NCBI RefSeq assembly: GCF_900176035.1
Contig: NZ_FWWT01000008.1
Span: 62,001 to 126,000, forward strand
Direction of reading: 5' to 3'
Length of the DNA: 64,000 nucleotides
DNA from: Desulfonispora thiosulfatigenes DSM 11270
GTDB lineage: Bacteria > Bacillota > Peptococcia > Peptococcales > Desulfonisporaceae
The notes under the pieces were generated by a model. The model did not search any database. It had not been told where the DNA came from and worked only from the letters and a program-made list of their open reading frames with translations. Of this stretch, positions 14,441-63,907 are shown in pieces. Position 1 is the first letter of the stretch. Each line of letters starts with the position of its first letter. Position numbers and translations under genes: made by a program.

Positions 14441-14893
14441 TTACTTTTTAAAATTTTTACCTGGTCCAAAATTCTTAATTCCTAACTCTTCCATTTGTGT
14501 TTTTGCTTGTTCTTTAGTTAACTCGCCTGCTTTTACCTTTTCTCTAATTTCGGTTAACTTGGCCTTGGTTGCTTCATCTATTTTCATTTCTGGTTTTTTA
14601 TGATCAGGAAATTTAATTCCTAACCCTTCTATTTCCGCTTTTGCTTGTTCTTTAGTTAATTCTCCTACTTTTACCTTTTCTCTAATTTCGGTTAACTTCG
14701 CCTTAGTTGCGTCATCTAGTTTCATTTCTGGTCTTTTATGGTCAGCAAGGTTTTGTTTAAATGCTCGGTGTATCCCAGGCTTGTTGTTTTCTACCTCTGT
14801 TTTGCTTACAGTATCTGCAGCAAAAGATGCTGTTGGTGCTAGCAAGCTTAAGCCTAAAGCACCTGTGGCAAGTACGGATAATATTTTTTTCAA
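14441..14893 (-). CDS. Small secreted protein with two 46-residue tandem repeats
   Basis: A 150-residue exported protein. The signal peptide (MKKILSVLATGALGLSLLAP) probably ends after ASFA at residue 25. Two units at residues 52-97 and 98-143 are nearly identical, each containing ATKAKLTEIREKVK, GELTKEQAK and a GIK end. They are predicted helical, highly charged and Cys-free. The start is TTG 14893 with GGAGAGG upstream. Function not recognised. The repeated Glu/Lys helices recall periplasmic metal- or stress-related helical proteins, but no family signature is visible. It lies directly upstream of the two-component genes, so it may be their target. Confidence 0.75.
   Translation of the reverse strand: MKKILSVLATGALGLSLLAPTASFAADTVSKTEVENNKPGIHRAFKQNLADHKRPEMKLDDATKAKLTEIREKVKVGELTKEQAKAEIEGLGIKFPDHKKPEMKIDEATKAKLTEIREKVKAGELTKEQAKTQMEELGIKNFGPGKNFKK
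14465..14740 (-). repeat. Tandem repeat of 138 bp, two copies, inside the secreted-protein gene
   Basis: Copy 1 is 14740-14603 and copy 2 is 14602-14465. The copies encode 46 residues each, with roughly four fifths of positions identical, and nucleotide similarity is visible over most of the length. This indicates a recent internal duplication. Confidence 0.7.
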
Positions 14894-14974: not shown

Positions 14975-15625
14975 TTAATTTTTAATAAACAAGCCATATT
15001 TCCTTTTAATTCTCTGGAGCATTTTTTCCCATTTATGCGCAAATACTTTTAAGAAAAATACATTTGAAATTCCATGGGCTAAATCAAAATAAAAGCTAGC
15101 TAAATAGGCCGTCAATAAGCCTTTCCAAGAAAAAGGAGAAATAAAACCAACTAAAAACCACAAATTCATTATCCAGCCAAAAATAAAACCCCAGACAAAA
15201 CCAAAGATTAATAATTTGGGGGAGCTATTGAACCAGTTTTTTTTCTGAAAATATCCCGCCGTAAACCCCATTAAACCCCATGCAAACATTTGCCAGGGTG
15301 TCCAGGGTCCTTGTCCTAAAAAAATATTCGAAACAAACGCACTAACTATCCCTACCAAAAATCCGGTCTCCCTGCCAAAGACAATTCCAGTCATAATAAT
15401 TACAAACGAAGTAGGTTGAACGCTGGGTAATGCCGCAAAAGGTATTCTACTTACAGCAGCAATAGCAGCTAAGATCGCAATTATTACAATCTCTTTTGCT
15501 TCTAGCTTTTTAGCTTCAAATTTGCGTATTAAAGGAATAAAAGATAAAACCATAAGTGCAACAGCTACTAATAAATAATAATTTGACGTCCATACTATAC
15601 CTAAAGTCATATCTTTAAAAATCAT
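14975..15625 (-). CDS. ECF transporter substrate-binding (S) component, probably corrinoid
   Basis: S components are small membrane proteins that bind one vitamin and dock on an EcfA/EcfT module. This 216-residue protein has ~6 hydrophobic helices. It shows the S-component pattern IAAVSRIPFAALPSVQPTSF, followed by a glycine-rich helix (TGIVFGRETGFLVGIVSAFV) and WTPWQMFAWGLMGFTAGY. It overlaps the ATPase gene by 11 bases and ends the operon. Neighbours carry transcobalamin-like domains and a cobalamin riboswitch lies at the head of the cluster, so cobalamin or a precursor (CbrT-like role) is the likely substrate. The sequence alone does not prove it. Confidence 0.85.
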   Translation of the reverse strand: MIFKDMTLGIVWTSNYYLLVAVALMVLSFIPLIRKFEAKKLEAKEIVIIAILAAIAAVSRIPFAALPSVQPTSFVIIMTGIVFGRETGFLVGIVSAFVSNIFLGQGPWTPWQMFAWGLMGFTAGYFQKKNWFNSSPKLLIFGFVWGFIFGWIMNLWFLVGFISPFSWKGLLTAYLASFYFDLAHGISNVFFLKVFAHKWEKMLQRIKRKYGLFIKN

Positions 15626-17519
15626 CTTTTTTCACATCTTTATTATTTATATCGTTCTTATGACTATCAGCTGTATTGCACAATTTAATCACATCTGTTT
15701 CTGTTAAAGCTGTCGGCAGATAGTCTCTTATAGCTCTATTGATAGCTGTGGTGTAATAATAATTACTACTAAAAAAATCCGTAGGGCTTCCGCTAAAAGA
15801 TATTTCACCATTAAATAAAAGTGCGCACTTCGTGGCATACCCAGCTGTAAATTCAACATCATGGGTACTCATAATTATGGTCAAGCCTTTTTGACGTAAT
15901 TTATTCAGAATCTGCATAAAATTTACTTTAGAGATAGGATCTAAACCTTTAGTAGGTTCATCAAGTAATAAAATATCAGGATTATTAAGTAGCACACAAG
16001 CAATGGCAAGTTTTTGCTGCTGCCCTCCACTTAAATCATAGGGGTGCTTTGAAAATAAGTTTTGCAAATCAAATAAAGTGATAATTTGCTCTCGAGTAAT
16101 TTGGCTAACCTGATTACCTTGAATTAGTTGGTCGTTTCTAAGTTTAGCATTTATAAATTTAGTATTTAAGCTGTTTTGAGTATTTACGTTATTAACTTTA
16201 ACCCCAGAGTGCTCTAGCTCGGCTTCCACCGTGTCCAGCGTAAAATGGAGCAAAGGATTTTGAGCAACATAACCTATTTTTTGATATTTTTCTGGATTAT
16301 CTATCTGCTTTAATTTTTTATTGTGTAAATAAACATTACCCTTTTGCGGTGAAAGTAGCCCCGCTAAAACTTTTAACAGAGTGGACTTACCTGCTCCATT
16401 TCCCCCTAAAACAGCTAAAAAATCTCCTGCTTCAATAGTCAGGGAAAGATCCTTTAATATTAAAGGGCTTTTAGGACTATATTTAAAATAGATTTCTTGA
16501 CATTTTAGTAATGGATCAGGGGTGGGGGATTTTGACCGAATAACTTTGAACTTATTATGTTCTGATTTATTATTAAATTTATTATTTACACCATCATTTA
16601 ATTTATTACTAATATTATGCTCATTGTTATTATTTTGTTCATTAGCACCGCTTCTACTATTTGACTTAATCACTTGTTTGTTTTCTTTAATAAATTGTTT
16701 TGCTTCTCGTACTGTGAGTGGAATTTGCTCTGTCTTTATTTTGCTGGTATTATTTAAGTTTTGGTACATTCGGGCAATTGCAGGTAAAAAGGCTAAATCC
16801 CTAGTTTGCTTACTTTCCATTATAGTTTTACTAATTTGCTTTGGATTACCTTGATATTTTATTTTTCCTGCTTCTAAGTAGACAATTTTGTCGGCCAGGG
16901 GAAAAACATCTTCTAGTCTATGCTCACTTAAAATAACTGTTAGAGAAAGTTCTTGATTTAAGTCATAGAGCATTTTAATAAATTTCTTTGCCCCAATGGG
17001 ATCTAATTGAGAAGTGGGCTCATCTAAAAGAAGTACCTTGGGCTGAAACATTAATACCGAACACAAATTAACAATTTGCTTTTGACCACCTGATAACTCA
17101 TGAATAAGCTTATCTAAAGAATCTTCTAAACCAAAAAAGGTAACAATTTCAGAGGTTCTTTTTTTAATCACTTCCGGTGCTAGTCCTAAATTTTCTAATG
17201 AAAAGGCAAGTTCTTGGATTACAGTATCTAAAACAATTTGATTTTCGGGATCTTGAAAAACCATGCCTATTTCACTAATCGATTTTAGCAAATCTAATGA
17301 TTCCAGTTCTTTATCTTGATATAAAATTTGCCCTGTTTTTTCCCCGATGGGAGTTATCTCTTTTTTTAAATTGCGTAATAACGTGGTTTTCCCAGATCCT
17401 GAGGGCCCACATAATACTACAAAACTTCCTTCTTCTATCATTAAATTGACCCCGGTTAACGCATTTTCCTGTTCCCCAGGATAGCGAAAATTCAGGTTTT
17501 TAATTTCCATAATTGCCAT
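15615..17519 (-). CDS. ECF transporter fused double ATPase (EcfA-EcfA')
   Basis: Energises vitamin import by the ECF complex. It is 634 residues with two ABC domains. Domain 1 (~1-255) has Walker A GPSGSGKTT, signature LSGGQKQ and Walker B VLLLDEPTSQLDP. Domain 2 (~335-605) has GGNGAGKST, LSGGQQQ and ILLLDEPTKGLDP. Most ECF modules use two separate ATPases; fusion is a known variant. The linker at ~275-325 is unusually Asn/Ser/Lys-rich, and a second Asn-rich insertion lies in domain 2 before the signature. The gene overlaps the T gene by 28 bases and the S gene by 11, so all three are coupled. Confidence 0.94.
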   Translation of the reverse strand: MAIMEIKNLNFRYPGEQENALTGVNLMIEEGSFVVLCGPSGSGKTTLLRNLKKEITPIGEKTGQILYQDKELESLDLLKSISEIGMVFQDPENQIVLDTVIQELAFSLENLGLAPEVIKKRTSEIVTFFGLEDSLDKLIHELSGGQKQIVNLCSVLMFQPKVLLLDEPTSQLDPIGAKKFIKMLYDLNQELSLTVILSEHRLEDVFPLADKIVYLEAGKIKYQGNPKQISKTIMESKQTRDLAFLPAIARMYQNLNNTSKIKTEQIPLTVREAKQFIKENKQVIKSNSRSGANEQNNNNEHNISNKLNDGVNNKFNNKSEHNKFKVIRSKSPTPDPLLKCQEIYFKYSPKSPLILKDLSLTIEAGDFLAVLGGNGAGKSTLLKVLAGLLSPQKGNVYLHNKKLKQIDNPEKYQKIGYVAQNPLLHFTLDTVEAELEHSGVKVNNVNTQNSLNTKFINAKLRNDQLIQGNQVSQITREQIITLFDLQNLFSKHPYDLSGGQQQKLAIACVLLNNPDILLLDEPTKGLDPISKVNFMQILNKLRQKGLTIIMSTHDVEFTAGYATKCALLFNGEISFSGSPTDFFSSNYYYTTAINRAIRDYLPTALTETDVIKLCNTADSHKNDINNKDVKKDDF

Positions 17520-18376
17520 ACTAGAGCTTCCTTTCCTTCTTCAATCACAGGTATAAAACTTAGGAGTAAAAAAACACCATAAAAAAACATATCGAGTATA
17601 TTAAATGAGATTCTTTGTAATTCTGGATAAATATTTAAGCTAGAATAACCCTGAAACCAGCCATACATTGTAACCAAGCTAAGAATAAGAATAAAAACTA
17701 ATAAACCTATGTCTCGTTTTTTCATTTTATATACTAAATAACTTGTTCTTTGGGTTAATCCATAACCTCTAGCTTTCATAGAATCGGCAGTTTGTAAGGC
17801 TTCTTCTAAAGACCAGTTGACTAATACATTTAGAAGTTGCATTCCATCCCTAGCTTTCTTTTTTAAGGTACCTACAGAAGTGTCTACCCCTTTTGTTTTT
17901 TGCACTAGGGTTATTTCTTCTAATCTTCTTTTTAATAAAGGCACAAAACGAATCGTCATCATAATTAAAAATGCCGTAGTAGGTATAAGTTTGCCAAATA
18001 AATATAAAAATTTATGGTGATCTAAAACCTTTTGCAATGAATGAAAGATCATTAAAATTGTCAGTAAAGATAAACTCATTATTAGTCCATAAATAGTAGC
18101 TTCTAAGGTAATTGGATTATTAAAAAGGTAAAATAAAATTGTGGCGCCTCGATGATTTAATATTGGGTTAATCAAAAAAACTGCAATCGCCATATTCAAA
18201 TAAAACTTCCCTGATTTAAATAAACTCGTTTTATCAGTGACAATTAAATTAAAAATAAAGCTTGAGCATAAGGCTATACTCAAATAAACTGGATGAAAAA
18301 GTAAAATTGCAAAGATAATAAGAAAGAGATAATAAGCAAAAATAACTAAAGGATGCCTGTTTGAAAAACCTTGCAC
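17492..18376 (-). CDS. ECF transporter transmembrane (T) component EcfT
   Basis: EcfT links the S component to the ATPases in the membrane. It is 294 residues with ~6 hydrophobic helices. The coupling-helix motif MKARGYGLTQR contains the conserved Ala-Arg-Gly, and an upstream KTKGVD replaces the other Arg-Gly motif. The start is GTG 18376, sharing one base with the TAG stop of the preceding lipoprotein gene. The ATPase gene overlaps its 3' end. This arrangement implies strict co-translation of lipoprotein, T, A-A and S. Confidence 0.92.
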   Translation of the reverse strand: MQGFSNRHPLVIFAYYLFLIIFAILLFHPVYLSIALCSSFIFNLIVTDKTSLFKSGKFYLNMAIAVFLINPILNHRGATILFYLFNNPITLEATIYGLIMSLSLLTILMIFHSLQKVLDHHKFLYLFGKLIPTTAFLIMMTIRFVPLLKRRLEEITLVQKTKGVDTSVGTLKKKARDGMQLLNVLVNWSLEEALQTADSMKARGYGLTQRTSYLVYKMKKRDIGLLVFILILSLVTMYGWFQGYSSLNIYPELQRISFNILDMFFYGVFLLLSFIPVIEEGKEALVWQLWKLKT

Positions 18377-19281
18377 TATTGATTTACCCCTATACCTTTA
18401 TTAAATTCTCGTCCTAAATCAATTGTATATAAAAATTCAATTTTATCTCCTGGCTTTACTTTATAGGCTCCTACACTTTGGTTTGGAAAGGTACTATTTA
18501 CGCGATAAACCCAGCCACTTTCAGGCCCATGATCAAATTCATAGATATTATTAATTCCTTCAATATATGCGAAACCTTTTGCTCCTGTATACTCCATTTG
18601 AATTCGTTTTTCTTTAGTAATCTTTAATAAAATATCTAAAACTGTATCTTTTTCTGCAAATTTAACCTTTGTACTACCTAAAATACTCCCTGTTTCTTTT
18701 GGTCCTATAATAGATACACTAATCATTTCTGCTTTAGGTTGAGCTGGAGGATTAATAGGGGCTTGGGGTTTAATTTGACTTTGAGAATTAGTTTGTGTTG
18801 GATTACTTTGTTGAGTGTTACTTTGAACTTGGTTATTGTTCTTATTATTTGTTTGACCTTTATTATTTGACGTAGTCGAATTACTGTTTTTTGCTGAATC
18901 TGTGCCTTTTGCGTTTGCTGTGTTCTCAAGGTTATTTTTAGTTAAATCAGGATTTTTTGAACCTGCTTGCTCATTTGCATCTTGAGAACTTTTAGATTTA
19001 CTCTTATCCTGTAAATTTACTTGTACCTCTGTCCCTTGAGTTTTTGTAGACTCTTGGAGTTTGTTTTCTTCTAAAGATTTTTCACTATTATTACCACAGG
19101 AAACTAGTAAGGTAAAAGAAAATAGTAGTAATAGCGTAGAAATAATTTTAATTTTTCCGGTCCTACTACTAGCTATATTTTCATTATTCTTTGCTCGGTT
19201 TATCTGCTGGTTAATCTGTCTATCTTGCTTTATCTCCTGTCCTTTTTCTTTTGTTTTCTTATTTATTTCTAAATCCCTCAT
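18376..19281 (-). CDS. DUF4430 (transcobalamin-like C-terminal domain) lipoprotein
   Basis: 301 residues. A lipobox LLVSC puts the lipidated Cys at 62, after an unusually long, charged 43-residue pre-region. Residues ~65-185 are a disordered Asn/Gln/Ser/Thr-rich spacer. Residues ~186-301 form a DUF4430 domain (VSIIGPKETG, YIEGINNIYEFDHGPESGW, VKPGDKIEFLYTIDLG), the fold of the C-terminal beta domain of transcobalamin and intrinsic factor. AAGGAGG precedes ATG 19281. It is the first gene of the ECF operon and overlaps ecfT. Inference: it hands a captured corrinoid to the S component at the membrane surface. Confidence 0.88.
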   Translation of the reverse strand: MRDLEINKKTKEKGQEIKQDRQINQQINRAKNNENIASSRTGKIKIISTLLLLFSFTLLVSCGNNSEKSLEENKLQESTKTQGTEVQVNLQDKSKSKSSQDANEQAGSKNPDLTKNNLENTANAKGTDSAKNSNSTTSNNKGQTNNKNNNQVQSNTQQSNPTQTNSQSQIKPQAPINPPAQPKAEMISVSIIGPKETGSILGSTKVKFAEKDTVLDILLKITKEKRIQMEYTGAKGFAYIEGINNIYEFDHGPESGWVYRVNSTFPNQSVGAYKVKPGDKIEFLYTIDLGREFNKGIGVNQ

Positions 19282-19316
19282 AACTAAATTTTCCTCCTTA
19301 TATCTACGAAAAATAC

Positions 19317-19322
19317 ATTATA
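19317..19322 (-). promoter_or_regulatory. Possible -10 box for the lipoprotein-ECF operon
   Basis: TATAAT on the minus strand (19322-19317), 36 bases upstream of the start codon, with a poor -35 (GTTAAA) 17 bases further up. With the terminator at 19455-19474 it suggests that the ECF operon can be transcribed separately from the riboswitch-controlled gene. The region 19330-19440 also has imperfect repeats of ATATAGAYAATGAAAAAG. Confidence 0.4.
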
Positions 19323-19454
19323 GAATACGATAAATCCTATTTAACTTTCTATACTTTAAAATTTTCTTCCTTATTTCTACTATAAATCCTTTTTCATTGT
19401 CTATATTATAAAATCTTTTTCATTATCTATATTTTTTACTTTTTAAAAATAAAG

Positions 19455-19474
19455 AAGGGAGAAAGATCTCCCTT
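19455..19474 (-). terminator. Terminator after the transcobalamin-like surface protein gene
   Basis: An 8-bp perfect stem (19455-19462 / 19467-19474) with a 4-base loop is followed on the minus strand by CTTTATTTTT. It lies just after the stop codon of the 1194-residue gene and before the lipoprotein gene. Confidence 0.75.
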
Positions 19475-19478
19475 AACT

Positions 19479-22400
19479 TTACTTCTTTTCATATAATCTT
19501 ACAGCTATGGCTGCTGCCATTTCACGAGTGGTCGGTTTTTTAGGACTAAAATATCCATTATCCCCCACTATAATTTTTTCCTTAAACACAGTTAAGACAG
19601 AATCCTTTGCCCAATCAGAGATTTGAAGATTATCTTTAATTATACTAGCTTCAGTATTGTCATTATCAAAAGAAGTATCTAGTTTCAGGGCTCTAACAAG
19701 GATAGCCGCCATTTCTTCTCTAGAGATAGGTTTTTGTGATGCAAACTCGTCAGGAGATACCCCTACTACTAAACCTTTTTCCCTAGCTGTCATGACTGCA
19801 GTATAATGCCAGTCTCCAGGTTTTACATCTTTATACACTTTATTAAAAGTATTATTTTGTTTAATAGTATTATTTTGCTTATTTATATTATTTTGCGTAC
19901 TTATAACTTTTTGGTTTTCTTTTTTATCTAATAAATTTAATAATAAACTTACAAACTCAGCTCTAGTGATATTTCTTTTTCCTTCAAAAGTGTTTTTAAC
20001 TAAGTCTGTGCCATTCATAAGCTGATACTCTTTTGCTTTTAGGACACTATTAAAAGCCCAATTAGATATTTCTGCTTCATCAGAATAACCTCCAGATGGT
20101 ACTTCAGGTTTCTCTGGTTTTGGCTCTAACTTATCATTAGATAAAAAGTAAACTTTATTTTGTCCCTTTAAATATCTTTCATAAGCAACAAGGGCAGTTA
20201 AAGCTTGCTCGGTTGCTATTTCATCTCTTGCTCCACCTTTAACATGACTAAAGCTCCCATCTTCTCTTGCAAAGCTTAATAATCTTGTTAATAATGTCTT
20301 GTCATCTTTAATAAATCTACTATCTTCAGGTGTAATTCCTAAAGAAGTTAAAGCAATAATAATTTGAGCCACATTCTCACAGTTTTCACTTTTAGTATTC
20401 GTAGCAAGATAATTTAAGGCTTTGTCGATGGCCTTTTGAGCAGTTTCTTGATTTTTATAGTTAGCAAGTGCTTGTACTGCCATAGCTGTAATATCAAGAT
20501 CGCTCTCTCCATTTTTCGCTAATGAAAAACTACCATCTGAATGTTGATAAGTTAAAATTGTTGTAGTTAAATTATCCCTTGTCCATTTAGACCCTGCTGG
20601 AATGTCATAATTTCCACTATCTAAAGCAATTAAAGCAAAAATAACACCATTGACACCTTGCTTTTCAAGGTTACTATGATTGTAAACCTTTTCAATAAGA
20701 TTTATACCCTCAATGTTAAGTGGATTTAAGCCAAGTGACCTCGCTAATAAAACAGTTCTTTCTAAATCTGTTATTTTTCTAAATTCACCTTTGTTATTTT
20801 TAAGCGTATCTTTTAAAGAATCTATATATTTTTCTGGAATTTTTTCATTATTACGAACTAAAGCAAATAACGACCAATCAGAAATATTATCCTGTGCTAA
20901 TATGCTTTTAGTAGTAAATTTGACTTTGTCTGATACCGCCTTTTGTACTTCTGCTGATGGTTTTACGACTTCTCCAGGTTTTACTGGATCTACTATAGTC
21001 CCAGGTGAACCACTTGTATTTTTATCCCCTACATCTTTACCCATATTTAAAGTATAGAGCCACTCAACACTATCACCGTTTTCCAGCTCATAATTACTTG
21101 CACTACCCTGAATGAAGTCACCATTAACAGCGAACATCCAGCCACTTTCTGGACCTTTATCAAATTCAAAAAGACCATTGATACCACGAACATAAATGCT
21201 TGATCCCGAACCACTAAACTGCACTTGTCCTGGTAATTCACGTTCTAAAATACTAAAAGGCGTATCATTTTTTCTTAATTCAACCTGTTTAGTTGTTAAA
21301 ATTACACCTTTATCACCTTTAACGTAAAGGCTAACTTTTTTTACGTTAGGATCAGTATTGTCATTACCACCGGTGCTATCTGTTTTATTAGTATACACTA
21401 CCGGGATTTCTCCCGTTCTCACAATTCTCGGATAACTATCCTGTACATCTTTGCTAACCTTTAAAAAATACTTTTCTCCATAATTCATATCTTTAGCTTG
21501 TATCGTTACAGTTCCACTATCATCGGTAGTATATTCCTGATTATTAAAGGTTACCGTTGCTCCCGTAACTTTGACATTTACATCTTTATTCGAGTTCCAG
21601 TCAAAATAATTAGAACTTACGGTAATTTCTAAATTATCTCCTTTTTGAGGTGAACTTGGCGAAATATCTACAATTGGTACTAATGTGTCTGGGGCAAACA
21701 TACCATAATAAACGATTATTTCATCGCCTTCATTAATAACTTGTTCCCCTATTCCTACATTGGAAGGTTTACCACTAACTAGATACATCCAGCCATCATA
21801 ACCACCAAATTTTCCAGCACTTTCTCCTTGAATATTTTGAATGTAGGCACCATATTGATTTGTTGGAATTTTATAACTTATCTTTTCAGCATCTAAAGCC
21901 TTTTTTATAACATCTAGTGCTGTTACTTTCCCTTTTGTAGGTTGAGCATTAATATCTTTATCTAAAATATTACTCTTAATTCCTTCTATGCGAAGATGAA
22001 CATTTACTCTATCACCTAGTGGGTTATCTTTATCATCATTAGGTTTCTCACTTGGATTATTTGGAGTAGTATCCCCTGGGCTATGATTTACTTTGTCTAA
22101 TCTTTTCCACACACTATCACCATTACTAATATCACCTAAAGCAATAAAGGATTGGCTGGTAGCAAAAGAATCAGACTTCTTTGGTTCACCTTTTGATGGG
22201 AAAGTGTACATAAAAGTTTTATCATCTAATTGAAATGCAAATAAAGCATCAAGCATTGTCTTGTTATTTTTTTGCCATTTATCCGTAAATATATTTTCTC
22301 CTACAGCAACAAGACCAGAAATAACTGTTGCAATAGTATTAGAACTTTCTGTTCCCCATGATCTAAAACCTGCACTACTAAGTTGATCTTTTTTCAGAAA

Positions 22401-23063
22401 TTCTAAAGATTTAGCAATCGCAGTTTGTACATTTTTGTTCTCCTGATGATTAGATAAAGCAATTAAAACCATTCCTGTACTATCGGCATCACCATCTTGA
22501 CCAAAAAAATTAAACCCACCATCAGCCTTTTGCTGAGCTATTAAGTGATTTAGAGCCTTATCTACATCATACTCTCCACTCGCTGCATCAAGAGCAATCA
22601 TCGCCCAAACATGACTGTTACTTAAACCAAAAGATCCTTCCTTATTTTGTTTGTTTTGTAATTCGCTAACAACATTTCTACCATTCCATAAATTTTTAGG
22701 ATTTTCTCCTTTGGCTAGCGACCCTAAAATTTTTGCAGCATAATCAGTTTCTTGAGACTTATCAGTTAAATCTTCACTTTTCCACAGGGGGAGTTTCTTT
22801 TTCCACTTTTCACTTTGTAAATCCTCCCCCGCTCCTTTCAGTCCTCCTAATTGATCCCAAGAAAATCCATCCCACGAAGTTAAGCTAGATTTACTCGCGT
22901 AATATTTAACTATTTCCGCTGTTGTTTCTTGCGCTAATTGTTGTGGTGTTTTTGTAGTAATATCTGCTGTATCAGCAAATGCTCCTACGGGTAAAAAACT
23001 TAATAGTATAGTTATCATTAATAAGATTGCTATACTATTTTTAAAGTTATTTTTATAATGCAT
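19479..23063 (-). CDS. SLH-anchored surface protein with two transcobalamin/intrinsic-factor-like units
   Basis: 1194 residues, exported. Signal peptide ~1-30 (AFA-D). An alpha/alpha-toroid with prenyltransferase-like repeats spans ~105-325 (KEGSFGLSNSHVWAMIALDA, ADGGFNFFGQ). DUF4430 domain 1 is at ~352-455 (GGYDGWMYLVSGKP) and an Ig-like region at ~462-558. DUF4430 domain 2 is at ~575-677 (DKGPESGWMFAVNG, VEWLYTLNMG) and a second toroid at ~702-970 (HSDGSFSLAKNGESDLDITA). Three SLH repeats lie at ~995-1194. Toroid plus DUF4430 is the architecture of human B12 carriers. A cobalamin riboswitch and terminator control it; AGAGGTGG precedes ATG 23063. Inference: surface capture of corrinoids. It is not a terpene cyclase, because it is exported and carries DUF4430. 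Confidence 0.88.
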   Translation of the reverse strand: MHYKNNFKNSIAILLMITILLSFLPVGAFADTADITTKTPQQLAQETTAEIVKYYASKSSLTSWDGFSWDQLGGLKGAGEDLQSEKWKKKLPLWKSEDLTDKSQETDYAAKILGSLAKGENPKNLWNGRNVVSELQNKQNKEGSFGLSNSHVWAMIALDAASGEYDVDKALNHLIAQQKADGGFNFFGQDGDADSTGMVLIALSNHQENKNVQTAIAKSLEFLKKDQLSSAGFRSWGTESSNTIATVISGLVAVGENIFTDKWQKNNKTMLDALFAFQLDDKTFMYTFPSKGEPKKSDSFATSQSFIALGDISNGDSVWKRLDKVNHSPGDTTPNNPSEKPNDDKDNPLGDRVNVHLRIEGIKSNILDKDINAQPTKGKVTALDVIKKALDAEKISYKIPTNQYGAYIQNIQGESAGKFGGYDGWMYLVSGKPSNVGIGEQVINEGDEIIVYYGMFAPDTLVPIVDISPSSPQKGDNLEITVSSNYFDWNSNKDVNVKVTGATVTFNNQEYTTDDSGTVTIQAKDMNYGEKYFLKVSKDVQDSYPRIVRTGEIPVVYTNKTDSTGGNDNTDPNVKKVSLYVKGDKGVILTTKQVELRKNDTPFSILERELPGQVQFSGSGSSIYVRGINGLFEFDKGPESGWMFAVNGDFIQGSASNYELENGDSVEWLYTLNMGKDVGDKNTSGSPGTIVDPVKPGEVVKPSAEVQKAVSDKVKFTTKSILAQDNISDWSLFALVRNNEKIPEKYIDSLKDTLKNNKGEFRKITDLERTVLLARSLGLNPLNIEGINLIEKVYNHSNLEKQGVNGVIFALIALDSGNYDIPAGSKWTRDNLTTTILTYQHSDGSFSLAKNGESDLDITAMAVQALANYKNQETAQKAIDKALNYLATNTKSENCENVAQIIIALTSLGITPEDSRFIKDDKTLLTRLLSFAREDGSFSHVKGGARDEIATEQALTALVAYERYLKGQNKVYFLSNDKLEPKPEKPEVPSGGYSDEAEISNWAFNSVLKAKEYQLMNGTDLVKNTFEGKRNITRAEFVSLLLNLLDKKENQKVISTQNNINKQNNTIKQNNTFNKVYKDVKPGDWHYTAVMTAREKGLVVGVSPDEFASQKPISREEMAAILVRALKLDTSFDNDNTEASIIKDNLQISDWAKDSVLTVFKEKIIVGDNGYFSPKKPTTREMAAAIAVRLYEKK

Positions 23064-23157
23064 TCTTCCACCTCTTAATAATTTGATTTATGACAATATA
23101 TACATACAATTAGTTTGTATAAAAGATTGTCCTTTTCCACCGAATAATCCTTTACAT

Positions 23158-23186
23158 AAAAAATCTCTAAAACAATTGTTTTAGAG
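23158..23186 (-). terminator. Riboswitch-controlled intrinsic terminator
   Basis: A perfect 22-base palindrome (23165-23186; arm CTCTAAAAC) is followed on the minus strand by A and six T residues. It lies between the cobalamin aptamer and the start codon, so it is the probable expression platform: B12-bound aptamer, terminator forms. Confidence 0.85.
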
Positions 23187-23206
23187 GTCAGAAAACCAGC
23201 CATAAA

Positions 23207-23226
23207 ATATGCTTAAATAAGCATAT
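23207..23226 (-). repeat. Leader hairpin between aptamer and terminator
   Basis: Arms ATATGCTTA (23207-23215) and 23218-23226 are perfectly complementary with a two-base centre. It is part of the leader RNA downstream of the aptamer. Its role in switching is unknown. Confidence 0.5.
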
Positions 23227-23261
23227 TACTTACAGCTAAGTCACCCCCTATCTCCCGTAGA

Positions 23262-23425
23262 GTTAATGGTGTTACAAAATAGGCAGGTCTTCTGGCTTAA
23301 GTATCAACATCTTTTCTGCCTTCCCAGTTTTAAACTAGTGGCTCATAGAAAAGACTACTCTATTACAGCGGCGGGACCGCGTGGGACTCACACCCACTTC
23401 CCTTTTAATTATTGTAAAGTTAAAT
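23262..23425 (-). ncRNA. Cobalamin (B12) riboswitch
   Basis: On the minus strand the leader contains the conserved cobalamin-aptamer elements in order: AAAAGGGAAG, a P4-like stem GTGGG..CCCAC, GCGGTCCCGCCGCTGTAAT, then AGCCAGAAGACCTGCC, and the 3' end ATTTTGTAACACC (the reverse of the plus-strand GGTGTTAC at 23268-23275). These are the most conserved parts of the class. It precedes the transcobalamin-like gene and an intrinsic terminator, so B12 is expected to shut off the surface protein. Confidence 0.95.
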
Positions 23426-23479
23426 TTTTCAAAAAAGACTTTACAAATAAACCTATTTTTTGCGTATTTATTTAATTTA

Positions 23480-28624: not shown

Positions 28625-29731
28625 TTATCCAATTACTGCCTTTGTTAAATTTCTCGGCTGATCTATTTCACAGCCTTTTGCTTTCGAAATATAGTAAGCG
28701 ATTAATTGTAAAGGCATAACCGCAAGTGCTGGTAATAATAAATTATCAACTTCTGGGATATATATTACTTCTTCAGTATATTTCGCCAATTCAGTATCCC
28801 CTTCTACGCCAATAGCTACAACCTTTGCTCCTCTTTCACTAAATTCTTTAATGTTAGCTAAGGTTTTGTCATAGATAGATTTTTGAGTGCAAACGGCAAT
28901 AATTAAAGTACCTTCATTAACTAATGCTGTTGTTCCGTGCTTAAATTCACCTGAAGGATAGGCTTCAGCATGAATATAAGAAGTTTCTTTTAACTTTAGT
29001 GCTCCTTCTAATGCTATTGCCCAGTCAAATCCACGTCCAATAAAGAATACGTTTTCTTTATCTTTAAACTCTTGTGCAATTTTTTCAAATTTATCAACTT
29101 CTGCTAAAATCTTTTCAATTTCTTTTGGTAGCTGTTGTAATTCTTTAATGATTTTTGCTGATGTTTCTTCATCTATTATTCCTTTTATTTGACCTAAATA
29201 TAATACTAATAAATACTCAGCTATTAGCATTGCGGTATAGGCTTTAGTAGAAGGTATCGCTACTTCTGATCCTGCCCAGATATAGATTACATAATCTGAT
29301 TCACGAGCTATTGTGCTATCTACTACGTTAGTAATTGCCATAACATCTGCACCTTTGCTTTTTGCTTCTCTTAAGGCTTCTAAGGTATCTGTTGTTTCTC
29401 CGGACTGGGTTACAACAATTACTAAAGTTTTTTCATCTACTAATGGTTCACGAAACGCGAATTCAGAAGCAATGTCTACTTCTACTGGCATTTTTAATAA
29501 TTTTTCGAATAGTTTTTTTCCTACTAGTCCTGCATGGTAAGCCGTTCCACAGGCAACAATATACACCTTATTCCATTTTTTTGCTGTTTCTAAGGATATT
29601 TCAAAGTCTTGAAATGTCACCTTATTGTTTTCGATTCTTCCATTTAATGTTCTGTTTACAGTTGCTGGCTGTTCATGGATTTCTTTAAGCATAAAATGCT
29701 CATATCCATTTTTTTCATCTAACTTTACCAT
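28625..29731 (-). CDS. GlmS isomerase half only (glutamine amidotransferase domain absent)
   Basis: Full GlmS (~600 residues) makes glucosamine-6-phosphate from fructose-6-phosphate and glutamine. This 368-residue protein aligns with the C-terminal ~365 residues only. It begins at the interdomain linker (GYEHFMLKEIHEQP) and has both SIS domains with VACGTAYHAG, VTQSGETTDTL, PSTKAYT, LEGALKLKETSYIHAEAY, EFKHG and the C-terminal DQPRNLTKAV. No N-terminal Cys glutaminase is encoded. TTAGGAGG precedes ATG 29731, and a glmS ribozyme lies immediately upstream, so the short form is not an artefact of start choice. It might use free ammonia, run as a deaminase, or pair with a separate glutaminase. 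Confidence 0.93.
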   Translation of the reverse strand: MVKLDEKNGYEHFMLKEIHEQPATVNRTLNGRIENNKVTFQDFEISLETAKKWNKVYIVACGTAYHAGLVGKKLFEKLLKMPVEVDIASEFAFREPLVDEKTLVIVVTQSGETTDTLEALREAKSKGADVMAITNVVDSTIARESDYVIYIWAGSEVAIPSTKAYTAMLIAEYLLVLYLGQIKGIIDEETSAKIIKELQQLPKEIEKILAEVDKFEKIAQEFKDKENVFFIGRGFDWAIALEGALKLKETSYIHAEAYPSGEFKHGTTALVNEGTLIIAVCTQKSIYDKTLANIKEFSERGAKVVAIGVEGDTELAKYTEEVIYIPEVDNLLLPALAVMPLQLIAYYISKAKGCEIDQPRNLTKAVIG

Positions 29732-29749: not shown

Positions 29750-29896
29750 TTAAGCACACTGCATCTAATACCCTTTGTCCCTAAAATTACTTTTAGGATT
29801 TAAGATATCTTTTTCGGTCATGCAGCAACCGGGAAGCATCCGCCGAATTTTCGATTAAACTTCCCCCTCGTCAACCATGTACTGGTCCAGGCGCTT
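29750..29896 (-). ncRNA. glmS ribozyme
   Basis: A self-cleaving ribozyme and riboswitch activated by glucosamine-6-phosphate. On the minus strand, A at 29895 precedes GCGCCTGGACC, the cleavage-site motif. Then come TTGACGAGG, AATCGA...TCGGCGG, TTCCCGG and GACCG in the canonical order, and a closing hairpin CCTAAAA-GTAA-TTTTAGG before the ribosome site. Cleavage is predicted between 29895 and 29894. Confidence 0.95.
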
Positions 29897-29935
29897 ATTC
29901 ATACCACTGTGCTTAGTTCAAATACGGTACACTAC

Positions 29936-63803: not shown

Positions 63804-63907
63804 TAACCATCAAGAGAGGTGGAGGGACTGGCCCTGTGAAACCCGGCAACAACTGATTTAATCAGAAATGTGCCAATTCCAGCAGAAAAACTCTGAGAGA
63901 TGGTAGT
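63804..63907 (+). ncRNA. SAM-I riboswitch (S-box leader)
   Basis: The leader has the S-box core in order: ATCAAGAGAGGTGGAGGGAC, TGGCCCTGTGAAACCCGGCA, AC, then GTGCCAATTCCAGCAG and GAGAGATGGT. P1 pairs ACCATC (63806-63811) with GATGGT (63899-63904). The class controls methionine/SAM biosynthesis or transport by transcription termination. Confidence 0.96.

Follow-up and report, generated by a model that had tools for sequence, protein, structure and literature searches.

The 64,000-nucleotide stretch of the Desulfonispora thiosulfatigenes DSM 11270 genome analysed in the current study (contig NZ_FWWT01000008.1, positions 62,001 to 126,000; hereafter the window, to whose first letter all positions refer) carries on its reverse strand an intact open reading frame (ORF) of 1194 amino acid (aa) residues (19479–23063), whose product is composed, in this order, of an alpha/alpha toroid (T1), a DUF4430 domain (D1), an immunoglobulin (Ig)-like domain, a second DUF4430 domain (D2), a second toroid (T2) and three SLH repeats. 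Based on the findings presented below, we conclude that this protein is probably a cell-wall-anchored receptor for vitamin B12 (cobamide), which comprises two transcobalamin-like units, T1-D1 and D2-T2, and which arose by the joining of a T-D receptor to a D-T receptor. That the receptor binds a corrinoid is predicted with high confidence and that it does so at two sites rather than one is favoured, if with considerably more reserve, while the chances are about even that the ligand would be handed over through a third DUF4430 domain (D3). The latter resides on a neighbouring lipoprotein, was overlooked in an earlier sequence-only reading of this DNA, and probably belongs to the binding path.

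Domain layout and fold of the putative receptor

The order and the coordinates of the domains as given by the sequence-only reading were borne out by the ORF, Pfam, purpose-built profiles and AlphaFold. A putative signal peptide, recognised in the sequence, occupies approximately residues 1–30 (22974–23063; all features of the receptor lie on the reverse strand). T1 (residues 65–316; 22116–22871) and T2 (residues 724–969; 20157–20894) were each delimited by profiles, AlphaFold and fold matches, while D1 (residues 365–456; 21696–21971) and D2 (residues 585–676; 21036–21311) were delimited by profiles and Pfam, the model of D2 additionally matching PDB entry 3u7z and the transcobalamin beta domain. 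The Ig-like domain (residues 458–560; 21384–21692) has Pfam matches below the cut-off only, yet beta strands are visible in its AlphaFold model and its own profile finds a counterpart at the same place in three relatives (loci L055, L060 and L078). The cell-wall anchor (residues 993–1192; 19488–20087) matches Pfam SLH in three stretches (80.7 bits) and by fold resembles the SLH region of Bacillus anthracis Sap (3pyw); these three repeats, together with the signal-like N-terminus, place the receptor among the SLH-anchored cell-wall proteins. Scanned as a whole, the receptor yields two DUF4430 matches (97 bits together), three SLH matches and toroid-type families on both helical regions. When the domains were scanned alone, D1 and D2 scored 53.0 and 56.2 bits against DUF4430 (curated cut-off 23.8), T1 matched SQHop_cyclase_C (37.4 bits) and T2 matched Prenyltrans (34.4 bits), the last two also above their curated cut-offs.

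The sequence-only reading had proposed alignment of both toroids and of both DUF4430 domains, as well as a full-length structure prediction. An alignment of T1 with T2 over 215 positions shows 29% identity (E 2e-19), by which the two are homologous but old; as the models of both also match transcobalamin, the possibility that one of them is an unrelated helical region, which that reading had raised against itself, is excluded. D1 and D2, on the other hand, are hardly alignable by BLAST, while D2 and D3 are close kin (37% identity, E 4e-25). The mature receptor, aligned with 26 related sequences, was modelled by AlphaFold with a mean predicted local distance difference test score (pLDDT) of 83, each toroid consisting of approximately 12 helices with pLDDT mostly above 90. 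The predicted template modelling score (pTM) was 0.39, at which the single domains are well determined and their mutual arrangement is not, so that the proposed prediction delivered the domain folds but neither their arrangement nor their pairing.

Among PDB folds, the fifteen that match the whole model best all belong to transcobalamin, haptocorrin or intrinsic factor (E 4e-8 to 4e-6), and the matches span 442–465 alignment columns, which is nearly the entire carrier, at a root-mean-square deviation (rmsd) of approximately 15 Å. When the D2-T2 unit was modelled alone, pLDDT was 88 and pTM 0.80; the latter exceeds our estimate for random placement of the two domains (approximately 0.65–0.7), and some docking of D2 onto T2 is therefore predicted by the model. 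The matches of this model include 3u7z (the best), transcobalamin, farnesyltransferase beta subunits and the isolated transcobalamin beta domain, among them 5np4 with bound cyanocobalamin. The comparison by Foldseek is sequential, and a transcobalamin-like docking of the reversed D2-T2 unit is outside its reach. Both toroids are thus real and the resemblance to carriers covers both units. At the level of sequence, the best PDB match of the DUF4430 profile is human transcobalamin-2, albeit weak (E 0.033); for the toroids, neither Pfam nor PDB profile searches gave a link to the animal carriers, likeness being revealed by fold comparison alone, and neither toroid matches Cobalamin_bind (PF01122) among Pfam matches listed up to E 10. 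The receptor thus shares with transcobalamin, haptocorrin and intrinsic factor the combination of a toroid and a beta-grasp fold, but differs from them in its low identity (approximately 15%), its two units, its wall anchoring and the reversed order of its second unit.

The best match of the D2-T2 model, 3u7z (TM score 0.73 on the target), is Ruminococcus gnavus RUMGNA_00854, labelled a ‘putative metal binding protein’ and of no established function. It is a stand-alone DUF4430 domain, unlike D2-T2, and presumably matches the D2 part of the model. As an observation in its own right, this solved lone DUF4430 protein may be a beta domain of a B12 system.

Automatic annotation of relatives would make the receptor a terpene cyclase or prenyltransferase, and the toroid profiles do match squalene-hopene cyclases by sequence; a relative of T2 on plasmid NZ_AP023417.1 (97714–98514, hit H2) is annotated as ‘terpene cyclase/mutase family protein’. 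However, the last Asp of the DxDD motif is replaced in both toroids (D-L-D-I in T2, D-A-D-S in T1), and the receptor is secreted, anchored to the wall and encoded within a B12 ECF operon. This reading was rejected on both the motif and the gene context, and we attach next to no probability to it. The label on the plasmid protein itself (NZ_AP023417.1, 97714–98514) is probably a misannotation of a B12 toroid.

An operon with a proposed role in B12 capture and import

The link to B12 is strong because the sole cobalamin riboswitch of the genome, with a terminator, lies upstream of the receptor gene, while a DUF4430 lipoprotein and a complete energy-coupling factor (ECF) transporter with a CbrT-like S component are encoded downstream; the description of the protein as B12-carrier-like in the sequence-only reading is accordingly backed by riboswitch, operon and fold matches alike. 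The aptamer (RF00174; 23265–23470, reverse strand; 112.6 bits, E 2.1e-27) was the only one found in a whole-genome search and is on the same strand as the receptor gene. Between the aptamer and the start codon lies a terminator-like hairpin followed by a T run (23165–23186, reverse strand), the expression platform. Downstream, and likewise on the reverse strand, follow the genes for the lipoprotein (18376–19281; lipobox Cys62, D3 at residues 197–291), the CbiQ-family T component (17492–18376), the fused ECF ATPases A-A' (15615–17519; 634 aa) and the S component (14975–15625), whose nearest solved structure is CbrT (6fnp; E 7.4e-15). Cys62 and D3 of the lipoprotein are separated by a linker of approximately 135 residues that is rich in N, Q, S and T. 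A second terminator-like hairpin (19455–19474, reverse strand) lies between the receptor and lipoprotein genes; the ECF part is likely, though not certain, to be co-transcribed. The genome contains three DUF4430 domains, every one of them within this operon. The host encodes a MetH-like B12-dependent methionine synthase with MTHFR adjoining, while CbiC, the sole biosynthesis marker searched for, was not found in the genome (assembly 99.6% complete).

CbrT is described as the vitamin B12 S component of an ECF transporter of Lactobacillus delbrueckii (PMC5997447; 6fnp). Like that system, the operon in the window encodes a homologous S component with a T component and ATPases alongside, and it belongs by these components to the CbrT type, B12 transport being predicted by homology. 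In contrast to ECF-CbrT, the window has a dedicated operon that includes a surface receptor and a lipoprotein; an extracellular binding protein did not turn up in the CbrT paper for the terms searched (PMC5997447).

The operon is not confined to this host. Twenty loci from related genomes and 80 named loci selected by toroid similarity were annotated with profiles built from the domains of the window; as sampling was by similarity to T2, counts refer to the sample and not to natural frequencies. A toroid gene is present in each of the 81 loci with an ECF-T gene, an S component in 78, and a lone DUF4430 protein directly precedes ECF-T in 73. The operons of many relatives are preceded by a cobalamin riboswitch (Rfam), and a simple B12-box pattern was found in at least 55 of 101 loci, some Rfam-positive loci escaping the pattern. 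These riboswitches, the CbrT-like S component and the fact that the nearest folds are those of B12 carriers all argue against a surface receptor for heme, another tetrapyrrole or a glycan that is only indirectly under riboswitch control. Such an alternative, which we consider very improbable, would draw on the ligand of the receptor being predicted only, on an ECF transporter known for heme uptake (PMC7299338) and on the diversity of ligands that the SLBB superfamily is described to bind (PMC1796856).

We therefore return to B12, for which the following course is proposed. Upon B12 shortage the riboswitch would let transcription through, and the receptor, once secreted, would be anchored to the wall through its SLH repeats. 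Each unit would enclose a single corrinoid between its toroid and the neighbouring DUF4430 beta-grasp domain, as transcobalamin and intrinsic factor do. D3, on the membrane-tethered lipoprotein whose long flexible linker could reach into the wall, would next receive the ligand and pass it on to the ECF importer by way of its CbrT-like S component.

Possible pairing of domains in one protein and between proteins

Both halves of the receptor occur by themselves and together. Within the sample, T-D proteins without a second toroid were found at 15 loci, stand-alone D-T proteins at 16 (for example in Cohnella, L064, L074 and L105), and the complete T-D...D-T arrangement on a single polypeptide at 17, namely the window and 16 others. 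The exact order T-D-Ig-D-T-SLH is shared by the window, Paenisporosarcina sp. HGH0030 (L060), a Sporosarcina metagenome-assembled genome (MAG; L078) and Paenibacillus nasutitermitis (L055), while other mirrored receptors of Paenibacillus have additional D or Ig domains. In L060 and L078 the receptor is likewise followed by a lone D protein and ECF genes, and the L060 protein is approximately 32% identical to the window's along the alignable length. Seven Paenibacillus-type loci (L055, L056, L058, L061, L065, L068 and L076) contain approximately 200 unassigned residues between the last DUF4430 domain and the last toroid.

Co-divergence of the domains was assessed across 14 mirrored operons by partial correlation after removal of the ECF trend, with permutation p values. 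The adjacent pairs D2-T2 (r 0.64) and T1-D1 (r 0.47; p 0.0005 each) co-vary most, and two binding sites are accordingly favoured over a single one formed between non-adjacent domains. Weaker correlations were obtained for D2-D3 (0.39, p 0.0045), T2-D3 (0.28, p 0.027) and T1-T2 (0.23, p 0.036), D1-D2 remained below the adjacent pairs despite its location on the same gene (0.15), and T1-D2 (0.18) and D1-T2 (0.05) were not significant. The sequence-only reading had left the choice between two ligands and a single one held by non-adjacent domains; the former fits better, whereas the latter, in which the receptor would fold back at the Ig-like hinge so that T1 meets D2 or D1 meets T2, appears very unlikely. 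The mirrored order would permit such folding and the full-length model does not fix the arrangement, but T-D and D-T halves are each found by themselves, domains that are not neighbours hardly co-diverge, and the D and Ig domains separating the two ends differ in number among loci, which is hard to fit with a fixed cross-pairing.

Several points weigh against a receptor with two transcobalamin-like sites that feeds the importer. The docking of T1 with D1 is not reproduced by the full-length model, given its pTM of 0.39 and the rmsd of approximately 15 Å. The co-divergence of neighbours may stem from linkage alone and was measured at only 14 loci; without the window, T2-D3 loses significance (0.11, p 0.22) while some weak pairs gain it. 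T1 and D1, the more divergent pair, may have lost or changed their ligand. Finally, the hairpin at 19455–19474 could uncouple the receptor gene from that of the lipoprotein.

In five genomes (L073, L079, L095, L116 and L120) a lone D protein carries the only DUF4430 domain, and the toroid is on a separate wall protein that is of LPxTG type in L073, L079 and L095 and of SLH type in L116 and L120. The toroid-SLH protein of the last two, which are however MAGs, has no space left for a hidden beta domain, and their halves, being on separate polypeptides, must act in trans or separately. The toroid protein of the three Bacillus-type isolates (L073, L079 and L095) is partly unassigned, which makes the split form probable there. 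A lipobox was identified by a simple pattern in 45 of the 91 lone D proteins, with a median of 153 residues from Cys to domain, and those inspected among the remainder have a hydrophobic N-terminal segment resembling a membrane helix. The separate occurrence of a wall-anchored toroid and a membrane-tethered DUF4430 domain suggests hand-over to the lipoprotein.

These split forms raise the question of whether the ligand partner of T2 is D3 and not D2, such that a wall toroid and a membrane beta-grasp domain jointly close on B12 in the manner of a split transcobalamin, D2 then serving in storage, competing or being vestigial. Aside from L116 and L120 and probably L073, L079 and L095, this is consistent with D3 being the most consistently present surface component (73/81 loci), with its kinship to D2 (37% identity) and with the T2-D3 correlation (partial r 0.28, p 0.027). 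However, that correlation is exceeded by D2-T2 and is not significant without the window, the D-T proteins of L064, L074 and L105 have their own D besides a lone D, and D3 could suffice to bind B12, as is the case for the isolated human beta domain (5np4). On balance we regard this exchange of partners as unlikely. A more general relay in Gram-positive bacteria, in which a wall toroid and a long-tethered membrane beta-grasp lid close B12 between them before it proceeds to the CbrT-like importer, is somewhat more plausible, although still short of an even chance; the receptor in the window would then be a two-site elaboration of it, with D3 taking over from D2.

Origin of the mirrored order and relation to previous work

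A recent inverted duplication within the receptor gene has the mirrored order alone in its favour. Constraining T1 and T2 as sisters was rejected by the approximately unbiased (AU) test (p 1.1e-5), and each of them groups with same-position toroids of Bacilli: T1 clusters with toroids that come first in proteins of Sporosarcina and some Paenibacillus (Shimodaira-Hasegawa-like approximate likelihood ratio test 99) and T2 is nearest to last-position toroids. Such a duplication is thus rejected for the toroids and is exceedingly improbable, in agreement with the sequence-only reading that the protein is not a simple tandem duplication. In the tree of DUF4430 domains, D1 is nearest to D domains that follow a toroid, D2 to those that precede one and D3 to lone D proteins; with few columns, the AU tests gave p 0.096 for D1 with D2 and p 0.28 for D2 with D3. 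Strictly positional toroid lineages were also rejected, as in many Paenibacillus proteins the first toroid is placed apart from T1 of the window in the tree; these toroids aligned to T2 of the window while the AlphaFold alignment was being built, which indicates that toroids were swapped between positions.

The receptor is therefore most likely an old fusion of a T-D receptor to a D-T receptor. Since T-D and D-T proteins both occur alone and the fused order recurs widely, the inversion is only apparent: ‘mirrored’ or ‘inverted’ holds as a description of the order and fails as a picture of its origin. The five operon proteins (14975–23470) are more similar to their counterparts in Bacilli, mostly Paenibacillus, than to those in the sampled loci of the same order. 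In a sample biased toward window-like loci, this is a hint of horizontal transfer of the operon.

Bacterial transcobalamin-like proteins were predicted as B12 scavengers by Burroughs et al. in 2007 (PMC1796856). That account describes SLBB proteins in which the toroid may precede or follow the beta domain, Ig-fold additions, and operons that also encode CbiO, CbiQ and another SLBB protein. Those proteins share with the receptor a signal peptide, the alpha/alpha toroid with an SLBB (DUF4430) domain, the Ig-fold additions and an operon of this kind. By comparison with the 2007 account, the receptor has both orders on one polypeptide as well as SLH anchoring, and the riboswitch and the CbrT-like S component go beyond the evidence given there; a two-unit mirrored protein is not described in the text of that paper (PMC1796856). 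A literature search on the names of bacterial DUF4430/SLBB transcobalamin-like proteins found no experimental study of them. What is new here is the recurrent two-unit mirrored architecture, both halves of which occur as stand-alone proteins, together with the CbrT-like S component, the riboswitch and the fully split forms. Capture of B12 outside the membrane of Gram-positive bacteria before ECF import was not described in the literature found, and the bacterial proteins are predicted to be related to the animal B12 carriers, whose likely origin they are according to Burroughs et al. (PMC1796856). The existence of cis, mirrored and fully split forms within one family would allow the opening, ligand transfer and evolution of a two-domain B12 trap to be tested, and a role in B12 capture would explain what the large DUF4430 family does, as well as many proteins now wrongly annotated as terpene cyclases.

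A number of further observations were made among the relatives and elsewhere in the window. Two Clostridium proteins (L090:16082–20416 and L094:14816–19171) contain four consecutive toroids with no DUF4430 domain detected, beside other toroid and DUF4430 genes, and a tandem pair of cobalamin riboswitches (L049:6280–7009) lies ahead of a toroid-SLH gene. Just downstream of the S component gene, 14441–14893 (reverse strand) encodes a small secreted protein, which contains two repeats of nearly the same sequence and matches DUF2680 below the threshold. A glmS ribozyme (29757–29906, reverse strand) is followed by a GlmS-like ORF (28625–29731, reverse strand) of 368 aa that has two SIS domains only, the glutaminase half being missing; the only further glmS-model match in the genome is N-terminal, in a 484-aa ORF that is probably PurF, and it is possible that the 368-aa protein is an ammonia-dependent GlmS. 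At the edge of the window, an S-adenosylmethionine (SAM) riboswitch is located at 63804–63906 on the forward strand.

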